In this document: piece by piece, positions 44,246 to 56,684 of the stretch
How positions within the stretch are numbered: position 1 is the stretch's first letter
How the letters are laid out: each line of letters opens with the position of its first letter
Assembly: GCA_009780825.1 (NCBI GenBank)
Contig: WQZH01000001.1
Span: 62,001 to 126,000, forward strand
Length of the DNA: 64,000 nt
From: Desulfobulbus sp.
Lineage (GTDB): Bacteria > Desulfobacterota > Desulfobulbia > Desulfobulbales > Desulfobulbaceae
Direction of reading: 5' to 3'
The notes under the pieces: generated by a model
Told to the model about the DNA's origin: nothing
Seen by the model: the letters and a program-made list of their open reading frames with translations, nothing else
The model's database searches: none
Translations under genes and position numbers: made by a program

Positions 44246-46315
44246 TCAATAATGATAGGCCAAACCAACGTAGAAGTTACGGCCGGGCATGGGGTAGTCC
44301 ATGACGTAGGCGTAGTCCTGATTGAACAGGTTGTTGATTGCGGCGCGCAGGCTCATGGTGCCTTTGTCTTTAAAATCAACCAGCTTTTGTTCAAGACTTA
44401 GGTTCACCACGGTGAATCCGCCGTAATAAATGTACTTTGTCTCGTAGGTCGGGTTGGTCGTCACATTCCAATCGTTCTGATAAGATTTGCCGAAGTAGGT
44501 GAGGTTCAGGTTGGCCGACAGGCCCAGGTCCGGATGATTGAAATCCAGACCGTATGAGGCCGTCATTTTCGGCACATAGGGCAGGGTGCCCGGATCCTGA
44601 GGCACGTAGTTGGTCTGGTCGCCGTTATCGCGCTGCGTCATGAGCGTGATATTGACATAGGGGCGCAGTTTGAATCGCTGCTTCATGGCCTTGCCCAAGT
44701 CCGCTCCAAAAGACAGCTCAAAGCCGGCGTAGACTGAGTCACCCGCCAAGTTGCCATAGATGTAGTTGGGTTGGGGGTAGGGCAAACCAGACGGCAGACC
44801 CGCGATTTTGTCTTTGTAGTTGGTATGGAAATAGGTCAGGCCGGCATTGATGCACTTCCATGACACGTCGGCGCCCACTTCGGCCCCCTGGCTCGTTTCA
44901 GGCTTTAGGCCAGGGCTGGGCGCATAGTAATACGAATCGCCGACCATCTGGGCGGGAGTGGGCATGTGAAAGCCTTCGGCATAATTGGCCCTGAGCTTGA
45001 GAAAATTGACCGGCAGCCAGGCCAGGCCTATCGAAGGTGAAAAATTGCTGTCGCTGAGGTTTTTTCCGCCCACTTCGTCCGTGTTTTCGTACGAGTCGTA
45101 CCGTCCGCCGGCCGACACAATCACTTTCTCGTCAAACAGCCGGAGCTTGCCCAAAAGATAGCCGGCGTAGTCAACAGACTTGGCCTTGGAAGAATTGTAG
45201 CTGTTATCCGCATCCAGGTCGTACTTGATGGCGTCGAACCCGGCGGTCAGCATCAACAGCTTGTTGTCGAACGTGACCCGGGCCTGCCCCTGCTGAAGAT
45301 CGGTGGTGGTAGCGCTCCGATAGTTGGGTACGGGATAGACGGGAGCGCCATAGGTATACGGGTAGTTCTGATCGTAGTAGGAAAGCGATTTGCTTTCGTA
45401 TTGTCCGAAGGTGTAGTCGGCTGCCCAACTGAACATCTTGTCTCCGGTGTGCCCTTCATAGCTGAGGGTGGTGTTGTAGGCAGTGTTGTCGTAGTTGTCG
45501 AAATTATCCGGCCAGACTGAGGTATCCGGCCAGCCGCCGCCGGGCAGTTCGCCATCGCTCATCTTGAAATAATTGAAATGCGCACCGATCCGATGATTTT
45601 CCGAAAAGGTGTATCCGGCATCCAGGTCGAGTCCCAGGCGGTCGCCGACGCTGGTGTGTTTCCAGGTGGCACCGGTTCCGGTTCTGTAATCATCCACCTT
45701 GGAATTGGTGATGGCCCCGGCAAAGTCAAACCCATTTTTGGCCCCGGACATGCTCAGTTTCTGGTTAAAGCCGCTATAGCTCCCCATCCCCACTTCGGCG
45801 TCGACGGTATAGCCTTCCTCTCCACGCTTGGTGATGATGTTGACCACCCCGCCCATGGACGAGGTTCCATACTGTACGGCCGCCGGACCACGGATGATCT
45901 CAATGCGTTCCACGTTGCCCAAGTCTTTGAGATTCAACAAACTGGTGCCGGTACGGTGCCCATTGAGCAAAATCAGGGTGCTCCCTTCCAGTTCATTGCT
46001 CAATGACGAATTGCCGATACCGCGAATGTAGAGGGCGGTGCTGCCGCTCCCATTGCCGCTGGTGGCGTAGGTCTGAAAGCCGTTTTGGTTCAAGAGTTGC
46101 CCCAGGTCGCTGGCCGTGGATTTTTTGATATCCTCTTCCGTGATCACGGTGATGTTGGACGTGACTTCTTTCTTGGCTTCCTTGGCGCTGCTGGCCGTGA
46201 CCACCATCTCGTCCAGTGAGGTCGAAGTTGTCGTGGTTTCGGCCCGAAGCCCTGGAGCGCCCATGAGGGTCAGGCCGAGAAGAGCCGAGGTACATCGAAG
46301 GTAATTGCCGGTCAT
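44246..46315 (-). CDS. TonB-dependent outer membrane receptor (BtuB-like)
   Basis: Plug LDEMVVTASSAKEAKKEVTSNITVITEEDIKKSTASDLGQLLNQ, VERIEIIRGPAAVQYGTSSMGGVVNIITKRG; C-term NNLFNQDYAYVMDYPMPGRNFYVGLAYHY. Confidence 0.93.
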   Translation of the reverse strand: MTGNYLRCTSALLGLTLMGAPGLRAETTTTSTSLDEMVVTASSAKEAKKEVTSNITVITEEDIKKSTASDLGQLLNQNGFQTYATSGNGSGSTALYIRGIGNSSLSNELEGSTLILLNGHRTGTSLLNLKDLGNVERIEIIRGPAAVQYGTSSMGGVVNIITKRGEEGYTVDAEVGMGSYSGFNQKLSMSGAKNGFDFAGAITNSKVDDYRTGTGATWKHTSVGDRLGLDLDAGYTFSENHRIGAHFNYFKMSDGELPGGGWPDTSVWPDNFDNYDNTAYNTTLSYEGHTGDKMFSWAADYTFGQYESKSLSYYDQNYPYTYGAPVYPVPNYRSATTTDLQQGQARVTFDNKLLMLTAGFDAIKYDLDADNSYNSSKAKSVDYAGYLLGKLRLFDEKVIVSAGGRYDSYENTDEVGGKNLSDSNFSPSIGLAWLPVNFLKLRANYAEGFHMPTPAQMVGDSYYYAPSPGLKPETSQGAEVGADVSWKCINAGLTYFHTNYKDKIAGLPSGLPYPQPNYIYGNLAGDSVYAGFELSFGADLGKAMKQRFKLRPYVNITLMTQRDNGDQTNYVPQDPGTLPYVPKMTASYGLDFNHPDLGLSANLNLTYFGKSYQNDWNVTTNPTYETKYIYYGGFTVVNLSLEQKLVDFKDKGTMSLRAAINNLFNQDYAYVMDYPMPGRNFYVGLAYHY

Positions 46316-46444
46316 AGGTTGTCCTCCTCGTGTGATGAGAGCCGATGGATGTTAGGCCCATCGGCGGGTTACCCTGCCGCCTCCGGTTGGCAAGGCGCTT
46401 GACGGTCACATCCGGCCTTCTTCCCAAAGGCCGGACCGCCAAAA

Positions 46445-47212
46445 TCAGGAAAGTGAAACGACCGCGCCATAGGCCACGCTGAACTGCGGCTCGGCCGTCA
46501 CATGAATATCCGTCAGCATTTCGTCTTCCAGCGCTTCCACCAGCCCCCGGTTTTGGGCCGGCCCGCCGTCCAAAAACACGGCCCCCTCCGATTGGCGGCG
46601 CCCCAGAATCCCAGCCACCCGACGGGCCACCGAGGCGTTGAGCGCCCAGATGATCTCCTCTCGTCCGACGCCCTGAGCCAAAAGCGAGATAATTTCACTT
46701 TCGGCGAAGACTGCGCAGGTGCTGTTCAATTCCACATGATTTTTCGCCCGCCGGGCCAGTTCGCCGAAATCTTCCAAAGGCGTATCCAGAAGCCGGGCAG
46801 CCAGTTCAAAGAAGCGGCCAGTACCGGCGGCGCATTTGTCGTTCATCCTGAAATCGGCCACCCGGCCTTTTTCGTCCAAAGTCAGCACCTTCACATCCTG
46901 ACCGCCGATGTTGATGATCGTGCGGGCCTGACCGCCGCTCAGACGGAAGAGCCCCAAGGCGTTGGCGCTGATTTCGTCTATTTGCCGGTCGGTAGCGGCA
47001 AAGAGATTCTTGCCGTAGCCAGTGGCCACCAGGCTGCCGATTTGCTCTTCCGGCAGCGCCAGATTGTGCCGTCCTTTCTGTATCAAACCCATAGCCAATG
47101 CTTCCTGCCCCGGTACGGTGGCCGTCTGGCCTCGCCAAAGAATTTTTTCGTTTTCGACAAAGACCACCTTGATGGCCGTGCTCCCCAGATCCAAACCGAT
47201 ATCGACACGCAT
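46445..47212 (-). CDS. BadF/BadG/HgdC-type acyl-CoA dehydratase activator ATPase
   Basis: MRVDIGLDLGSTAIKVVFVENEKIL, TIINIGGQDVKVLTLDEKGRVADFRMNDKCAAGTGRFFELAARLL. Confidence 0.93.
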   Translation of the reverse strand: MRVDIGLDLGSTAIKVVFVENEKILWRGQTATVPGQEALAMGLIQKGRHNLALPEEQIGSLVATGYGKNLFAATDRQIDEISANALGLFRLSGGQARTIINIGGQDVKVLTLDEKGRVADFRMNDKCAAGTGRFFELAARLLDTPLEDFGELARRAKNHVELNSTCAVFAESEIISLLAQGVGREEIIWALNASVARRVAGILGRRQSEGAVFLDGGPAQNRGLVEALEDEMLTDIHVTAEPQFSVAYGAVVSLS

Positions 47213-47213
47213 T

Positions 47214-48455
47214 TCAGAGATTCTCCAAGTTGTTGCCGAAAGCCTCCAGACGGGTCAGAAGATTTCTGCCATCTTCGGCCGCATAGTCTGTTTCCAGCCT
47301 GATGAACTTCAAGCCGGCCCGCTTCAGCGGCTCCTCTAAGGTCAGGCTTTCCAGATCATACGGATGACAACCCTTCAACACGTGGAGAATCACCCCCTTG
47401 ATCGTCGTGCCCAATACCGCTCCCCGGATATTGTTGAGGCGGCGTCCGTTGTCGCCGAAAGTCGGGCACAAGCAGCCCTGGTGATAGCTTTCGGCCAGAG
47501 CCCGTAACAGCCCGAAATCCGTAGGGTCGTCCATGGTCACCTGGGCGGGAAGGAGCCGTTCCGACGAGCAAAGATCATCGCCTGTGACCGTCAGGCCGGC
47601 CACTTCCAGCAAATGAAGCAGCTTGAAGTTGGGAAAATAGATCGGCGAACCCGCCAAAAACACCAACCCCGCCGCCTTGGCCTGGGTTTGAAATGTTGGC
47701 AGGGCCGCGTCCAAGGCCGCTGTCCAGCGTTCAATGCGATCCAGAAAAAACGAATTGGCTATCAAAAAGAACCACACTGCCGGGACCCGACCAGCCCGCC
47801 GCGCTTCGATCAAACGGCTGAAAGTCTGCCTGGCCTGCTGGAAGGTGGTCAGAGAGTCTAAAAGCATTTTTCGGGTCGGTTTACGCCCCGACAGCCCGGC
47901 CAAAAAATCTTTCAGTCCCGCGACTTCGGCCAGCCAGCGCTCCCCGGCCCGGGCCGAATTCTTCAGATGCGGCAGCTCCAGCCAATGCAGTGGCGTGGAC
48001 ATGTCCAGGCCGCACAGACCCATCATTTCCCGAAATTTCACCACTCAGTCGCAGGTGGTGGGCAAAACCCACGGATGGCCAGAATCTGCCGCTGCCTCCG
48101 ATTCCAAGGCGCCCAGAACTGATCTAAGCATGGGGCACATCAAGGCCGGGAGCTTGGGAGCCGCGATCTGGCCAGCGGCCAGGGAACCGCTGGAAAATTT
48201 ATAAGGATGCAGACCACAGGCCAAAAAAAGCTCCAGCGGCGCCTGCAGACACAAAAGATTCACCACCGGACGATCCACCCGCCGAGCCACCGACGCTGGC
48301 GAAAATCCAGTCCGGAAAAGATCCAGGAAATATGCCAACTCTGGACGATAGTCGTCACGGGCAACAAGCATGTCCAATTCGCGAGCCAATTCCATCTGGC
48401 ATTTTTCTTCCAGCCGAAGTTTCAACCTGCTCTGCCGATCCATATTGCCGGTCAT
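47214..48455 (-). CDS. 2-hydroxyacyl-CoA dehydratase / double-cubane-cluster-type protein, interrupted by one in-frame TGA (48047..48045)
   Basis: ORFs 48045-48563 and 47214-48044 are contiguous in one frame, ...HPWVLPTTCD-[TGA]-VVKFREMMGLCGLDMSTPLHWLELPHLKN...; HgdB-family architecture; paired with activator; ATGA overlap with the upstream gene. Confidence 0.8.
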
Positions 48456-49390
48456 AATTTTTTCCCCACCAGTCTCAAGGCCAGCCGCCGGGACGATGAA
48501 AAGAGACGGCGCCCGAACCAATTGAAATGCAGGGCCCCGTCGACCGGGCAAGATTCCAGGCAACGGCCGCAGTTCAGGCAGGTTCCGGCTTGGACATCGG
48601 TCTGTTCCTGTTCTTGGTAGACTTCTTCAATATCCATTGGGCAAACCCGTCGGCAGGTGCCGCAGCCGTGACACAACTGCGGCGTCTTGACCAGGCGCAG
48701 GGCGGTTAGAGGTTTCAAGAGGCGAATCAAAGCCAAGAGAGGACAGAATAGGCAAAAGAAACGGTCCTTGAGAAACATGCCCACCAACATGCCACCGGCG
48801 ATCAAGAGGGACAGAGCGGTGAAGCCCAACGTGACCGCGTTAGTGCAGTCCAGCGACAAGTATTGAGGTTGGCCGGCCAGGAGCGGTAACAGCGGCTTGG
48901 CTGGGCAGATATTGCAAAATGGCAGTTTGAAATCGGGATGGAGCCAGCCAACTGTCACCAAGGGTGGAACCAGGATCAGATAAGCCAAAAGACCGTATTT
49001 GATCCAACCCAGCCGAACCATGGTGGAGGCGGCAATCAGGGCTTCCCGCCAGCCTAAGCGCCGGCGCAGGGCGCTGAGCCAATCATGCACCAGGCCGAAA
49101 GGACACAGCCAGCCACACCAGGCCTTACCCAGCAGCACCACCGACCCGGCAAAGATCAAAAACCAGATCAGGACCCGCCAGCCATCGAAACCGGACAACG
49201 CCGTCCAGGAAAGGCCAAAGCCGATATAGCCCTGCAGGCCCATCAAGTAACAGTGGCCGCCGCAACCGACCACATAGGGGCAGGCAAAACACGGCAAGGC
49301 CGGCCCTAGATTGACGCCGAAGCGCCCGCCATACATCAAAACGATAAAGCCCAGGTGTTGGACGAGAAAGCGGAGGGAGGTCAGGCGCAT
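48452..49390 (-). CDS. NapH/NosR-like membrane 4Fe-4S polyferredoxin
   Basis: Multiple TMs; GKAWCGWLCPFGLVHDW, FFCLFCPLLALIRLL, CHGCGTCRRVCPMDI and CLNCGRCLESCPVDGAL. Confidence 0.9.
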   Translation of the reverse strand: MRLTSLRFLVQHLGFIVLMYGGRFGVNLGPALPCFACPYVVGCGGHCYLMGLQGYIGFGLSWTALSGFDGWRVLIWFLIFAGSVVLLGKAWCGWLCPFGLVHDWLSALRRRLGWREALIAASTMVRLGWIKYGLLAYLILVPPLVTVGWLHPDFKLPFCNICPAKPLLPLLAGQPQYLSLDCTNAVTLGFTALSLLIAGGMLVGMFLKDRFFCLFCPLLALIRLLKPLTALRLVKTPQLCHGCGTCRRVCPMDIEEVYQEQEQTDVQAGTCLNCGRCLESCPVDGALHFNWFGRRLFSSSRRLALRLVGKKL

Positions 49391-50274
49391 ATTCCGAATT
49401 TCCGACGGGTCAGCCAGGCCAGCATGCCGCTGACCAAAGCGCCAGCGGCGAACACCCACAGGCCGGCGGACAAATTCCAGCCAGCCCTGCGGGAACGGTG
49501 GACGAAAAGCGTGAAGGCGACCGAATCGCCGTCGCCACTGTGGACGACGAAAACCAGGGGCTTGGAAGCTAAATCGCCGGCACGGTCGAGGATGGGGTCA
49601 TGCTCGGGTCGGTATCGGAAACCTGCCGCTCCGGGTTTCACCTCGGCCACTTGGCGACCATTATCCCACACGGCCAGGTTTTTGGCCGACGTACCTCCGC
49701 TCCTCTCAATCTTCAAGGTAAATTCCTGACCGGTTTGAGGCCAATAGAGCGGGCCATCGGAACTGACCAAAAATTCCGGCCAGTCTGGTGCCTGGGGCAA
49801 GCGGTTCGGCTCTGGAAAAGCGCCGGCTCCTGAACCGCCATACAGATTGAAGGCTGTTTGCGCATAGTGAAGGCGGCCCCCGATCTCCACCCGGGCGAAA
49901 ATTGAGGCACGTCCATATTCTCCGCTGAAAATGACGATTTTCAGTCCGGCCGTGGACCGCTCCCAACTCAGGCTATGGATTCCAGCGCCTTCAGGAGCGG
50001 TGGTTTCGTTAAAATGTTCCAGCCTGGTCAACCGGTAAAAAACGACCGGATTGCCCAACAAGACCCCGGGGCTGGAACTTTCCAAGGCCAAAATCAACTT
50101 GACCCTGCTATCGGCCAACCGCTCAATCGAAGCGGACGACCATTGCATAAATGCCCCCGCCGCCGGATTCAGTGTCTCGCCAGACGCACCCGAATTTGCG
50201 GTCAGAAATAGCAAACAGACAAAAAAAAAGATGAGCACGATATCGTTCTCACACCAAAATATACAAGGCGCCAC
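49381..50274 (-). CDS. Exported protein with C-terminal TM, DUF4198-like (tentative)
   Basis: N-terminal hydrophobic segment; beta-rich region (FYRLTRLEHFNETTAPEGAG; FTLKIERSGGTSAKNLAVWDNGRQVAEVKPGAAGFRYRP); C-term TM LSAGLWVFAAGALVSGMLAWLTRRK; overlaps the NapH-like gene. Confidence 0.6.
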   Translation of the reverse strand: MAPCIFWCENDIVLIFFFVCLLFLTANSGASGETLNPAAGAFMQWSSASIERLADSRVKLILALESSSPGVLLGNPVVFYRLTRLEHFNETTAPEGAGIHSLSWERSTAGLKIVIFSGEYGRASIFARVEIGGRLHYAQTAFNLYGGSGAGAFPEPNRLPQAPDWPEFLVSSDGPLYWPQTGQEFTLKIERSGGTSAKNLAVWDNGRQVAEVKPGAAGFRYRPEHDPILDRAGDLASKPLVFVVHSGDGDSVAFTLFVHRSRRAGWNLSAGLWVFAAGALVSGMLAWLTRRKFGICA

Positions 50275-50857: not shown

Positions 50858-51580
50858 TCACCCTTCCAGTTTAAAGGTAACGGTTTGCTCCACCAGAGCC
50901 TTGACCGCCATACCGTTGACCGTGCCCGGTTTGAACCGCCAGTGGCTAACACACTGCAGTACGCTCTGTTCGAAAATGCCTTTGGGCTCAGCCGCCAGCA
51001 CCGAGATCTGCCCCACTTGGCCGTGTTCGTCGACCACGAATTTGACCTTGATCCAGCCTTCGATGTTCTGCCGTTTGGCGGCCGGAGGATAGGCTGGAGG
51101 CGTTCTGGCCAGCGCTGTCAGCGGCCCGTCGAGCTGACCGATGCTGAAGATGCCGCTGCTGTTGCCGCGCGTCTGGCTGGCCCCGGATCTTTGAGCCGAA
51201 GCGGGGGGGTCCGAGGACACCGGCGCACTGTCCGGTGACGCCGGGGCGTCCGCACCGGTGGTGACCGGAACCGTCTCCACCGACGGCGTCTCTTTGGCCG
51301 CAGACGGCAAAGATTTCCGGATGACCGTTTGTGGCGGCGGCGATTTTTTTCTGAGCGCCGGCTTGGGCGGCACCTTCTTTTCAACCATAGGAGGAGGCGG
51401 GGAGGCCGATTCCATCTTCGCAACCGCCTCCGCTGGTCCAGTTGATGCGAGGATGGAAAAATCAAGCAGGACCGGCGGTTGAATCAATTGGCTATGCTGC
51501 TTCAGGGTAACAACCGCCCCACATACCAACAGCGCATGCAACAGCAGAGATACACAGGCGGCTTTCGCTTGTCGATTCAT
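50858..51580 (-). CDS. tonB: Energy transducer TonB
   Basis: N-term TM, Pro/Lys-rich linker (PPPPMVEKKVPPKPALRKKSPPPQ), C-term PPAYPPAAKRQNIEGWIKVKFVVDEHGQVGQISVLAAEPKGIFEQSVLQCVSHWRFKPGTV. Confidence 0.95.
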   Translation of the reverse strand: MNRQAKAACVSLLLHALLVCGAVVTLKQHSQLIQPPVLLDFSILASTGPAEAVAKMESASPPPPMVEKKVPPKPALRKKSPPPQTVIRKSLPSAAKETPSVETVPVTTGADAPASPDSAPVSSDPPASAQRSGASQTRGNSSGIFSIGQLDGPLTALARTPPAYPPAAKRQNIEGWIKVKFVVDEHGQVGQISVLAAEPKGIFEQSVLQCVSHWRFKPGTVNGMAVKALVEQTVTFKLEG

Positions 51581-51960
51581 GGCTGCTGTTCGGTTTGCAG
51601 GATTAACGTGATGAAACCGAGCCGTTTGATCGTTTCGTACAGATCGACGAACTGTTGCAGCGCGATGTCCTTGTCCGCCCTGATGGTGAGCGGCGTGGTC
51701 CGGTCCACAGCCGCCAAGGCCGATCCCAGTTCAGTCAGCGGTGTTTCGGTGGTTTCGACCCAGACTTTCCCTTCCTTGGTGATGGTGATGTTTAAGGGGT
51801 GCTGCGCTGCCGCCTCCCGGCTGGCTGCGGCTTGGGGCAGCTCGACCTTGATGCCGCCGATGGCGATGAAAGTCGAGGTGGTGAGAACGATAGTCAGCAA
51901 CACCAGCATCACATCGACCAGAGGGATGACATTGAGATAATCAAATTCCTTTTCGTCCAT
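51577..51960 (-). CDS. exbD: Biopolymer transporter ExbD
   Basis: MDEKEFDYLNVIPLVDVMLVLLTIVLTTSTFIAIGGIKVELPQA; ATGA overlap with tonB. Confidence 0.95.
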   Translation of the reverse strand: MDEKEFDYLNVIPLVDVMLVLLTIVLTTSTFIAIGGIKVELPQAAASREAAAQHPLNITITKEGKVWVETTETPLTELGSALAAVDRTTPLTIRADKDIALQQFVDLYETIKRLGFITLILQTEQQP

Positions 51961-52372
51961 GGCGGATATCCCACTGGATGAGGAGAACCTTGCAGCGGCG
52001 GAGCAGGAAGTTGTAGAAGGTGATCGCCGGAATGGCCACCAGCAGGCCAAGCGCGGTGGCCTTGAGCGCCAGTGCCAGCTCGGTCATGATCTTGGTGGTG
52101 TCAAAGCCGCTGGCGCCAATGTCGTAGAAAGTGAGCATGATGCCGAGTACGGTGCCGAGCAGACCAATATAGGGGGCATTGGCGCCGATGGTAGCAATCA
52201 GGTGAAGTTTATGGCTCAGATGCAGTTCAAGTTCCTTGCGGTCAGTGAATTGCTTGATGTCGGTCGAACGGTAAACCAGCCAACGTTCGATAGCCGTGGC
52301 AATGGCGATGACGCTCAACACCAGGAGCAAGCCGAGCACACCGTAATCGATCAGGGAATGCAAATGTTCCAT
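51941..52372 (-). CDS. exbB: Biopolymer transporter ExbB/TolQ-like
   Basis: MEHLHSLIDYGVLGLLLVLSVIAIATAIERWL, NAPYIGLLGTVLGIMLTFYDIGASG, ALKATALGLLVAIPAITFYNFLLRR. Confidence 0.94.
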   Translation of the reverse strand: MEHLHSLIDYGVLGLLLVLSVIAIATAIERWLVYRSTDIKQFTDRKELELHLSHKLHLIATIGANAPYIGLLGTVLGIMLTFYDIGASGFDTTKIMTELALALKATALGLLVAIPAITFYNFLLRRCKVLLIQWDIRHGRKGI

Positions 52373-52630
52373 GAGGGTCCTTGAAGGCGGCGCAATAGTG
52401 GCGCATGAAAAACGGACGCATCGTTTACCGCGGGCAGAACGGATGCGCAGGCGACCGACGGCGCGGTGACAACCCGGAAACGGCGCAGGAGACAACGCGC
52501 CGTTTTCAACAGGCGTTGCGGTCGTTGCGGTGCAATGACAGGGGAAAAAGAGGCATCCTTTGCATGGTTCTCCGCATGATACGCAAGCAGCGTCGACAAT
52601 GAAGGATGGCCGGGAACCTGCGGAGGGGAC

Positions 52631-52666
52631 AAAAAAAATCCCGGATCGAACAAATCGATCCGGGAT
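52631..52666 (-). terminator. Intrinsic terminator between the cobalamin riboswitch and exbB
   Basis: Perfect 11-bp stem ATCCCGGATCG-N7-CGATCCGGGAT followed on the minus strand by T8. Confidence 0.88.
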
Positions 52667-52735
52667 AGCCCTATTTATCCACAGAAATGATGAAACCGGT
52701 ACGATGCCGTCCTCGCAGTCGTCTCCTCTATCCGT

Positions 52736-52897
52736 CCAGGCAGGTCTTCTGACTTACGGTTCATCCCTACTGGCTGCGTCTTCCCAACCCTTTGGTCAGT
52801 GACATGGTGCAGCGTTCGTCCCCGAATACAGCGGCGGGCCCATCCCTGATTCACACAGGGTTCCCGATTAAGTTCTTGCGAACACCTGAACTGTCGA
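52736..52897 (-). promoter_or_regulatory. Cobalamin (B12) riboswitch
   Basis: Minus strand: CAGGTGTTCGCAAGAACTTAATCGGGAACCCTGTGTGAATCAGGGATGGGCCCGCCGCTGTATTCGGGGACGA...CACCATGTCACTG...GGGTTGGGAAGACGCAGCCAGTAGGGATGAACCGTAAGTCAGAAGACCTGCC; core and B12 box recognisable. Confidence 0.93.
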
Positions 52898-53053
52898 AAA
52901 ATAGAATCCATGCGCCATGGATTGTCAAGCAGAAAATTTTTTCCGTTGGGCGCGCGATACGCACACTCTCTCTGCCCACGCATGCTGGCCATGCCCCGCC
53001 AAGCGGTTATCTGCCTGCCGCTGTTCTATCTCTTCTGCATATCCCCATCGCGC

Positions 53054-54844
53054 TCACTTCCCATCCAAGCGCACCAAGTCCCGGTACACACCCCCTTGGC
53101 CCATCAGCTCGTCGTGGCTGCCCTGCTCGACGATCCGCCCTTGATCCAGGACAACGATCCGGTCAACCCGTCTGATGGTGGACAGCCGGTGAGCGATCAC
53201 CAACGAGGTGCGGTCGCGGAAACCAGCGGCGACTGCCTGCTCCAGCATATTTTCCGATTCGGTGTCGATGGAGGCGGTGGCCTCGTCGAGCACCAGGATG
53301 GCCGGGTCACGATATAAGGCCCGGACGAAAGAGAGTAGTTGCTTCTCGCCCAGACTGAGATTGAGTGCCCCCTCCCCGATACGGGTATCCATTCCCTTGG
53401 GCAGCCGGTCGACAAATGCCTGGAGGCCGGTCTGGTCAAGGATGGCGGCCAGCCGCTCCTCGTCCGGTTCTTGGTCGAGGATGATATTGGCCCGCACCGT
53501 GTCCGGCAGGATAAAAATGTCCTGCATGATCAGACCGACCCGTTGCCGCAGGATGTCCAGGGGCAGCGTGCGAATATCCTCGCCGTCGATCAGCACCTGT
53601 CCGGCCACCGGATCGTAGAAGCGGACCAGCAGGGAAATCAGGGTCGATTTGCCGGCGCCGGTGGTCCCGACCAGGGCCACGGTCTCGCCGGGTCGAATGG
53701 TCAGGTCGATCCCATGCAGAATCGACTGACCCGGTTCGTAGCCGAATTCCACGCCCTTGAATTCGACCAAGCCCATAACCGCTCGCGTCCCAGTGGTCAA
53801 TGGCCGGACAGGCACCGTCATGACAGGACGGGTATCAAGCGTCTGAAAAATACGCTCCGCCGAGGCCATGGCCGCCTGGACAATGGAATATTTCTGGGAA
53901 AGTTCGCGCAGAGGCTGAAAAAAAAGCCGCATGTACGAAATAAAGGCGGCGAGTTCGCCGATGGTCAAGTGGCGGCGGATGACCTCGCCGCCGCCGTACC
54001 AAATGATCAAGGCGATGGCGACCGAACTCATCAGATCGATCAGGGGCATAAACAGACCAAATAGCTTGATCTGGTCAAAGGAGTGCACCAGGTATTCCCT
54101 GGTCAACTCGCCGTGCCTGCGGCTGCTTCGTTCCTGGCCGCCGAAGCACTGGATCACCGCTACTCCGGCCAGGGACTCGGCCAAGAAGCTGTTGATCCGG
54201 GCCAACTGCGAACGGATGGCACGGAATTGCTCCCGGGCGAAACGGGAAAACAGCATGGTGCTGATCGCGGCCAACGGGATAAAAACTGCCATCACCAGGG
54301 CCAGCCGCCCGTTCATCAGGAACAAGAACCAGAAGATACCCGCCAACTTGAGGCCGTCATTGAACAGAGTGACCATCACCGAGGTGAACATCTCGTGCAT
54401 GTTTTCGATGTCGTTGGTCAGTCTGGTCACCAGGCGGCCGGCGGGATGGCCGTGAAAATAGTGCAGATCAAGGGTGAGGAGATGGGAAAAAAGATGCTGC
54501 CGCAGACGGTGCATGATCGACTGGCCGACCCATTCCAGCACCACCACCTGCAAAAAGGTGGTCAGAAAAACCACCCCAACCAGCAAGCCGTACAACAGCG
54601 CGACCCGGCCGAGTCCGGCAATGCGCTCGGACCGGCTGATCCCTTCGGCGACAATGGAGGTGTCGATGCCCATCTGCATCAGCCGCGGCAGAGCCAAAGA
54701 GGCCACGGTGATGACCAGCGCCAGGCCGACGGCCCCGGTCAGGGCCAGCCCATGCCCACGGCAGTAACCGAGAATCCGCCGCCAGAGCCGGACATCGCCT
54801 ATCGTGCCGGGATGCCCATCTTCCGCATACCCGAAATTATGCAT
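53054..54844 (-). CDS. ABC transporter ATP-binding/permease protein (exporter, MsbA/MdlB-like)
   Basis: TM domain; VALVGTTGAGKSTLISLLVRFYDP, LSLGEKQLLSFVRALYRDPAILVLDEATASID. Start set at MHNFGYAEDG, overlapping the end of the upstream partner. Confidence 0.92.
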   Translation of the reverse strand: MHNFGYAEDGHPGTIGDVRLWRRILGYCRGHGLALTGAVGLALVITVASLALPRLMQMGIDTSIVAEGISRSERIAGLGRVALLYGLLVGVVFLTTFLQVVVLEWVGQSIMHRLRQHLFSHLLTLDLHYFHGHPAGRLVTRLTNDIENMHEMFTSVMVTLFNDGLKLAGIFWFLFLMNGRLALVMAVFIPLAAISTMLFSRFAREQFRAIRSQLARINSFLAESLAGVAVIQCFGGQERSSRRHGELTREYLVHSFDQIKLFGLFMPLIDLMSSVAIALIIWYGGGEVIRRHLTIGELAAFISYMRLFFQPLRELSQKYSIVQAAMASAERIFQTLDTRPVMTVPVRPLTTGTRAVMGLVEFKGVEFGYEPGQSILHGIDLTIRPGETVALVGTTGAGKSTLISLLVRFYDPVAGQVLIDGEDIRTLPLDILRQRVGLIMQDIFILPDTVRANIILDQEPDEERLAAILDQTGLQAFVDRLPKGMDTRIGEGALNLSLGEKQLLSFVRALYRDPAILVLDEATASIDTESENMLEQAVAAGFRDRTSLVIAHRLSTIRRVDRIVVLDQGRIVEQGSHDELMGQGGVYRDLVRLDGK

Positions 54845-56684
54845 GGCTCTGCTGCTTCTCCGCCATGGCGCGATACAATGGGTTGGCAAGCAGGGTCTGG
54901 TGTCGACCCTCGGCAACGATGCGCCCGTCGTCGAGGATGACGATCCGCTCGGCATGGCGCAGGACATTGACCCGGTGGGAGACGAGCAACACAGACCTGC
55001 CGCGCAAATGGTCCAGCAGGCCGCGCAGCACCTGTTGTTCCGTCTCGACGTCAATGGCGGACAGGGCATCGTCGATGATCAGCATCGGCCGGTCGCAGAG
55101 CAGTGCCCGGGCCAGCGCCAACCGCTGCCGCTGGCCGCCGGAAAGTTTCACCCCCCGTTCGCCGATCACCGCCTGGTATCCTCCGACAAAATCCTGGATC
55201 TCGCCGTCGATGGCTGCGGCCCTGGCCGCAGCCACGATTTCGTCCATGGTGGCGCCGGGGCGGCCAAAGGCGATATTGGCAGCCACGGTATCGGCAAAGA
55301 CCACCGGTTCCTGGCCGACATAGGCGATGCAATCGCGGATATCCGCCTGACTGAGCCGGTTGACATCGATCCCCCGGAAAAAGAGCATGCCGTCGGCCAC
55401 TGGATACATCCTGAGCAGCAGTCTGCACAGGGTGGACTTGCCCGAACCGGTACGGCCGGTCATGCCCACCAAGCCTGGTCCGATCGTCAGGTCAATTCCG
55501 GCCAGCGCCGGCCGCGTACCCGACGGATAGGTGAAAGAGAGCCCTTGACACGCATAGGTGGTCGGCATGGCGGAAGGCAGAGTTTGAAGAAAGCTGCCGG
55601 CATTGACCACCGGCCGTTGCGCCAACAGGCGATGGATGCGGCGCAGGCTGGTCATTCCCCGTTGAGTGAGGTTGGCTACCCATCCCAGCGCCATCATCGG
55701 CCAGATAAGCATATACAGATAGCTGACAAAAGCGACGAAAGCGCCGATGCTGATTTGGCCGTCGATCGTCAGGATGCCGCCGTAATAGAGAACAAGCAGC
55801 ATACCGACATTGCCGACCAGGGTGGCGATGGGAAAAAGCAACCCCTGAATGGCCGCCACCTTGAGATTGCTCCGCACATACGTCTCGCCCAGGTTCCGGA
55901 ACCGCTCCTCTTGGAACCGTTCCAAAGTATAGGATTTGATCAGCCGGATCGAGACCAGGGTGGCGCGGGTGAACTCGGTGAGCAGGGCGAACTGTTCCTG
56001 AACCAGGTTGAAGCGATGATGGAGGCGGCCAGACAGGATGCGGGTGCCCACGATCAGCACCGGCATGGGTAACAGGGCCACCAGGGTCAGCTTGATGTTG
56101 ATCGCCAGCATGAACCCCAGGGCCGCCGCCGACATCACCAGGGAGTCCACCGCCGCCACCAGCCCCATGCCGCAGGCCATTTGGATGGTGGCCAGGTCGT
56201 TGCTGGCGTGGGCCATGAGATCCCCGATGGTCCAGCGCTCGAAAAAGGGTTGATCCATGCGCAGCACATGCTCGAACAGGCGGTCGCGCAGCTTTTTTTC
56301 CAAAATGCGGGAAAAGCCGATGATCAGATAGCGCCAGACAAAGCGGAGAGCGGCCACCACCACAGCCACCGCCAGGACGTACACACTCAATTCGATCAGG
56401 CGGGCCGGAATAGCCGCCTGCACCGCCAGGACGTACACACTCAATTCGATCAGGCGGGCCGGAATAGCCGCCTGCACCGCCAGTCCGTCCACCGCCGACT
56501 TGACGAAGCGGGGGATGACCAGTTGCAGGAAGTCGACCGCCACCAGGGCAAAAAAACCGATGGTCAAACGTGGCCAGTGGCTGCGAAAGATGGGGACGAG
56601 CAACTTCAGCAGGGAAGCGGGGGGTGCCTCCTGACTGCCCGCGGCGCCTTGTCCGGTCCCGGAGCCGGTAGCTGAGACGGTCAT
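54837..56684 (-). CDS. ABC transporter ATP-binding/permease protein (exporter, MdlA-like) with an 18-aa tandem duplication
   Basis: GMTGRTGSGKSTLCRLLLRMYPV, LSGGQRQRLALARALLCDRPMLIIDDALSAID; repeated LAVQAAIPARLIELSVYV. Confidence 0.92.
   Translation of the reverse strand: MTVSATGSGTGQGAAGSQEAPPASLLKLLVPIFRSHWPRLTIGFFALVAVDFLQLVIPRFVKSAVDGLAVQAAIPARLIELSVYVLAVQAAIPARLIELSVYVLAVAVVVAALRFVWRYLIIGFSRILEKKLRDRLFEHVLRMDQPFFERWTIGDLMAHASNDLATIQMACGMGLVAAVDSLVMSAAALGFMLAINIKLTLVALLPMPVLIVGTRILSGRLHHRFNLVQEQFALLTEFTRATLVSIRLIKSYTLERFQEERFRNLGETYVRSNLKVAAIQGLLFPIATLVGNVGMLLVLYYGGILTIDGQISIGAFVAFVSYLYMLIWPMMALGWVANLTQRGMTSLRRIHRLLAQRPVVNAGSFLQTLPSAMPTTYACQGLSFTYPSGTRPALAGIDLTIGPGLVGMTGRTGSGKSTLCRLLLRMYPVADGMLFFRGIDVNRLSQADIRDCIAYVGQEPVVFADTVAANIAFGRPGATMDEIVAAARAAAIDGEIQDFVGGYQAVIGERGVKLSGGQRQRLALARALLCDRPMLIIDDALSAIDVETEQQVLRGLLDHLRGRSVLLVSHRVNVLRHAERIVILDDGRIVAEGRHQTLLANPLYRAMAEKQQSHA
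56367..56483. repeat. Perfect 54-bp direct tandem repeat (2 full copies plus 9 bp)
   Basis: CACCGCCAGGACGTACACACTCAATTCGATCAGGCGGGCCGGAATAGCCGCCTG occurs at 56367 and 56421. Confidence 0.97.

Follow-up and report, generated by a model that had tools for sequence, protein, structure and literature searches.

The question raised by this locus is how to read a single in-frame TGA that interrupts a gene for an HGD-D/double-cubane-type reductase: as an inactivating mutation, as an error in the assembly, as a leaky or recoded codon, or as the border between two genuine polypeptides. The window (the 64,000-nucleotide stretch of Desulfobulbus sp. DNA that we analysed) contains two minus-strand open reading frames, 48045-48563 and 47214-48044, which share one frame and are separated solely by the TGA at 48047-48045. 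At that point the sequence is ACC ACC TGC GAC TGA GTG GTG AAA (translation TTCD*VVK), i.e., the stop falls just past a predicted cluster-ligand Cys. When the stop is read through, the joined frame matches the HGD-D profile PF06050 (E 1.1e-56; 193.3 bits against a gathering score of 28.4) over profile positions 1-341 of 342. A near-full domain of this kind means that the two frames are halves of one gene and no chance arrangement, which bears out an earlier, sequence-only reading that same-frame ORFs abut here at an in-frame stop. The 5' end of the upstream frame, at 48563, is a mechanical boundary; translation probably starts at the ATG at 48455, because this codon and the stop codon of the adjoining NapH-like gene overlap by four bases as ATGA. 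Counting from that start places the TGA at codon 137 and leaves fragments of 136 and 276 residues (Table 1).

Table 1. The interrupted gene, its predicted fragments and its neighbours, in window coordinates.
Feature	Position	Strand	Remark
HGD-D/double-cubane-type reductase gene, one in-frame TGA	47214..48455	-	414 codons including both TGAs
In-frame TGA, codon 137	48045..48047	-	invariant Trp (TGG) position in homologues
N-terminal fragment, 136 aa	48048..48455	-	3 of 6 predicted cluster-ligand Cys
Ligand Cys codons in N-terminal fragment	48251-48249, 48137-48135, 48053-48051	-	by BzdN numbering (PMC11971306)
C-terminal fragment, 276 aa if restarted at GTG 48044	47214..48044	-	other 3 of 6 ligand Cys
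Ligand Cys codons in C-terminal fragment	47570-47568, 47468-47466, 47369-47367	-	by BzdN numbering
Weak hairpin stretch past the stop	48000..48044	-	indistinguishable from background
Activase, BcrAD/BadFG ATPase family, intact	46445..47212	-	PF01869, TIGR00241
NapH-like membrane polyferredoxin, intact	48452..49459	-	partner in 51 of 54 loci
Probable periplasmic protein, no family assigned	49381..50274	-	partner in 27 of 54 loci
TonB-dependent receptor	44246..46315	-	linked to cassette in 21 of 54 loci

The residue that relatives carry at the stop position proved the most instructive evidence. We searched 73 genomes of the same family, 257 of the same class and GTDB genome contigs, and so obtained about 90 related loci. 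In the subfamily of the window protein (38-56% identity), TGG, encoding Trp, occupies this position in 52/52 alignable loci; two further loci that do not align over the site were left out, and L041/L102 and L042/L109 are pairs of identical gene sequences, so the 52 represent 50 distinct genes. To judge from record titles, these come from Desulfobacterota, Synergistaceae, Sporomusa, Accumulibacter, Acidobacteriota, Planctomycetaceae and Spirochaetaceae. Outside the subfamily, the site is held by Gln (17), Ala (12), Gly (8) or Trp (2). Neither Cys nor TGA was found there in any of the 52 subfamily loci or the wider-family relatives, no homologue among those found is split at this point, and whole-genome searches of family and class in which stops were read through revealed no internal stop in any relative. 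Nor were there homologues in viral contigs. One of our contig-search patterns, TTCD[WC][TV]VK, required Trp or Cys at the site, the second being distant from it; loci with the flanks IVN, IVK, SVK and VAK do not fit the first pattern and must have been recovered through the second, and these all have Trp as well. A TGA-containing homologue that also lacked the second pattern could have been missed by the pattern search; the stop-tolerant whole-genome searches had no such limit. Thus, of the substitutions that had been suggested from the sequence, a change (or sequencing error) from TGG to TGA is supported, and one from GGA is very unlikely, since every close relative has TGG. A separate observation concerns locus L108, where the coding sequence of the HGD-D homologue (470-1803) shifts near residue 228 from one frame to another; this is either another broken copy or an assembly error.

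A second line of evidence concerns the predicted cluster ligands. The [8Fe-9S] ligands of BzdN are Cys36, Cys73, Cys100, Cys263, Cys293 and Cys327 (PMC11971306), and these align with Cys105, Cys143, Cys171, Cys332, Cys366 and Cys399 of the read-through frame (P0001 numbering), Cys171 having been placed by inspection of a gapped stretch of the alignment. All six are invariant in the subfamily, their role as ligands being assigned by alignment. The stop divides them evenly: 105, 143 and 171 precede it, and 332, 366 and 399 follow. Neither fragment alone, therefore, can be expected to hold the cluster.

We favor the reading that this is a real, ordinary and recent nonsense change at an invariant Trp codon, with a probability of roughly two in three. 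A single G-to-A change would have converted TGG (codon 137) to TGA in what is the only HGD-D gene of this genome (2.75 Mb, 56 contigs, 100% complete). The product would then end at residue 136, with half of the Fe-S ligands still to come, and no working enzyme would be made; the intact activase gene just downstream would retain its own start. The locus has the hallmarks of single-nonsense pseudogenes, i.e., one in-frame stop, absent from homologues and one base away from the sense codon TGG, in a frame that is otherwise intact. We infer both that the base is real, and no consensus error, and that function has been lost. The remainder of the gene is undamaged (the TGA is the only lesion in 414 codons), which suggests that the change is recent: if indels make up 10% of mutations and transitions are given a weight of 4 to 1, a neutrally decaying gene should, with 95% probability, have gained another stop or frameshift by the time it has taken up about 24 mutations (about 2% divergence). 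On these simple assumptions, any neutral decay would have gone no further than roughly 2% divergence. A leave-one-out analysis found that the window protein departs from its homologues at 1/57 near-invariant sites (0/13 upstream and 1/44 downstream of the stop), a figure typical of intact homologues. Constraint in both halves is equally to be expected of a gene that is read through or otherwise functional, or of a sequencing error, and to that extent it also counts against the nonsense reading.

The main rival is a base-call or consensus error, in which case the true codon would be TGG and the gene intact; we consider this unlikely. It is consistent with the lack of any other lesion and with constraint that is unrelaxed on either side of the stop, with the draft state of the assembly (56 contigs), and with the intact condition of the cassette neighbours: the frames of the activase and the NapH-like protein are both open, and they depart from near-invariant sites at 3/73 (rank 44 of 46) and 2/60 (rank 38 of 48) positions, respectively. 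Against it, the change is a plain substitution and no homopolymer indel, and we saw no positive sign of error. When the window was scanned for other genes interrupted in frame, most of the candidates appeared to be antisense frames or the borders between genes.

Could some full-length enzyme still be made, through leaky or suppressor insertion of Trp or another residue at the UGA? UGA is the leakiest stop codon in bacteria, and the constraint that is apparent in both halves would suit such a process. However, the sole tRNA-Trp found has the anticodon CCA, and the sole tRNA with a TCA anticodon is tRNA-Sec; two weak tRNA-like matches were unconfirmed by ARAGORN. The code itself looks standard, as TGA also terminates the HGD-D gene just before the activase ATG. 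Among the tRNAs found, then, there is no candidate to suppress or reassign TGA, and we regard read-through as very unlikely.

Fainter still is the prospect of selenocysteine, whereby SelB would recode the UGA and place Sec beside a cluster-ligand Cys in lieu of the invariant Trp. The question is a reasonable one to pose, given that the genome encodes the full Sec machinery: a tRNA-Sec (72.7 bits; anticodon TCA by ARAGORN), together with profile matches to SelA (608.8 bits), SelB (355.7 bits) and SelD (367.8 bits). The search for sel genes that the sequence-only reading had called for thus returned the complete set. Moreover, SelD is itself likely to be a Sec-containing protein: its gene (L018, around 1531 of contig C2) has one in-frame TGA (AAGUAAKLG) followed by a strong hairpin. 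That UGA is probably read as Sec elsewhere in the genome makes recoding biochemically feasible, and this counts against the nonsense reading. The residue in homologues nevertheless speaks against Sec: in the subfamily it is always Trp, never Cys or TGA. We found no relevant report of the HGD-D/double-cubane family as selenoproteins, and a term search of two selenoprotein reviews gave no mention of it.

The hairpin downstream of the stop carries no weight in either direction. As quoted in PMC13188914, a bacterial SECIS model comprises a 3-9 nt loop with G in one of its first two positions, a 4-16 bp stem, a spacing of 16-37 nt and a folding energy of -7.5 kcal/mol or lower. The hairpin past our stop satisfies this loose model (28 nt; -11.8 kcal/mol). 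In its minimal form, it has the loop UGUGC and a five-pair stem with two G-U pairs; the SECIS-like distance and the wobble pairs that had been described earlier are therefore present, and the GG-containing loop is not, there being a G in the second position only. The same model is also satisfied by 21/68 ordinary TGG codons in genes of the window (31%), eight of these being at least as stable, whereas the SelD element (-23.4 kcal/mol) is equalled by 0/68. Among dinucleotide shuffles of the window stretch, 161/200 fold at least as well as the original (z 0.83), compared with a z of -2.49 for SelD. The hairpin is thus at background level. SelD and the interrupted gene are alike in having an in-frame TGA in a Sec-decoding genome; they differ in that the latter lacks both a homologue with Cys or Sec and a hairpin that rises above background. 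On the strength of the Trp column and the background-level hairpin, we reject selenocysteine. If true, it would have meant a selenoprotein whose Sec codon descended from one for Trp instead of Cys, within a family in which we found no selenoprotein on record.

Least likely of all is a genuine split gene, earlier raised as a stop-restart option, in which translation would resume at GTG 48044 to give two polypeptides that assemble: the GTG GTG directly 3' of the stop invites this idea, but no Shine-Dalgarno-like sequence was found before GTG 48044, homologues are never split there, the residue lost is an invariant Trp, and a 3+3 parting of the ligand Cys would hardly yield a working enzyme.

Two characterized systems are closest to the protein that an intact gene would encode. 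The double-cubane cluster protein, DCCP (PDB: 6eno, 7yyl; NF040772), is a sequence homologue over 98-443 (E 6.6e-26) with conserved Cys at the ligand positions and an ATP-dependent activase partner. On the other hand, the read-through protein scores far under the cut-off of the NF040772 double_cubane profile (179.5 vs 350 bits), the solved protein has Gly after TTCD (TTCDGKK) where the window subfamily has Trp, and the window gene is linked to a NapH-like polyferredoxin and, in many loci, a TonB receptor. BzdN, from class I benzoyl-CoA reductase (PDB: 8s02), is also a homologue (E 6.7e-18), with the six ligand Cys matched as described above. In contrast to that system, the window's genome has no BzdO-like partner subunit.

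The gene is part of a cassette (44246-50274, minus strand) that is conserved and apparently horizontally spread, and that may constitute a reductase system driven by ATP and as yet uncharacterised. Its counterparts (loci L061-L112), which bear the HGD-D signature PTTCDWVVK, occur across numerous phyla, and many of them come from metagenome-assembled genomes. Across 54 loci, the flanks of which are often incomplete, the HGD-D gene is accompanied by the NapH-like gene in 51, the activase in 49, the counterpart of the 49381 protein in 27 and the TonB receptor in 21. Among the genomes searched, there were no relatives of the same subfamily in the window's own genus, the best two being 32-33% identical and belonging to another subfamily; the HGD-D gene may therefore have been acquired horizontally. 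Our literature search returned nothing relevant on the cassette. We also considered whether NapH-like homologues are selenoproteins, and rejected this: their in-frame stops lie upstream of the start, or, in one case (L108), at the very end.

Several observations relate to what surrounds the cassette. Just upstream of it in the window (50858-56684, minus strand) are genes for TonB, ExbD, ExbB and two half transporters of the ABC exporter type, an arrangement fitting an uptake locus. One of the ABC transporter genes (54837-56684) contains a perfect 54-bp tandem repeat of 2.2 copies (56367-56483), so that a stretch of 18 residues within the membrane region (LAVQAAIPARLIELSVYV) is duplicated; this may reflect either a recent event or faulty assembly. 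Elsewhere, CobN-family (PF02514) genes are found near the cassette at eight loci (L100, L099, L106, L066, L071, L097, L083 and L092), one of which served as the query locus, and CbiK-type genes at L100, L106 and, more weakly, L075; no CobN-family protein was found in the window's genome. A CobN-like protein, HmuS, removes iron from heme in gut anaerobes, according to PMC12583661. From gene linkage we would guess that the cassette helps to process an imported tetrapyrrole, or some other metal complex, under anaerobic conditions.

Taken as a nonsense codon, the TGA has little weight beyond annotation. There it does matter: automatic annotation would yield two short proteins or a false selenoprotein call. 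The locus also offers a caution, namely that the presence of sel genes, even together with a hairpin that passes as SECIS-like, is weak evidence where the DNA is G+C-rich, and that it is the residue in homologues that decides. The cassette around the interrupted gene may merit study in its own right.
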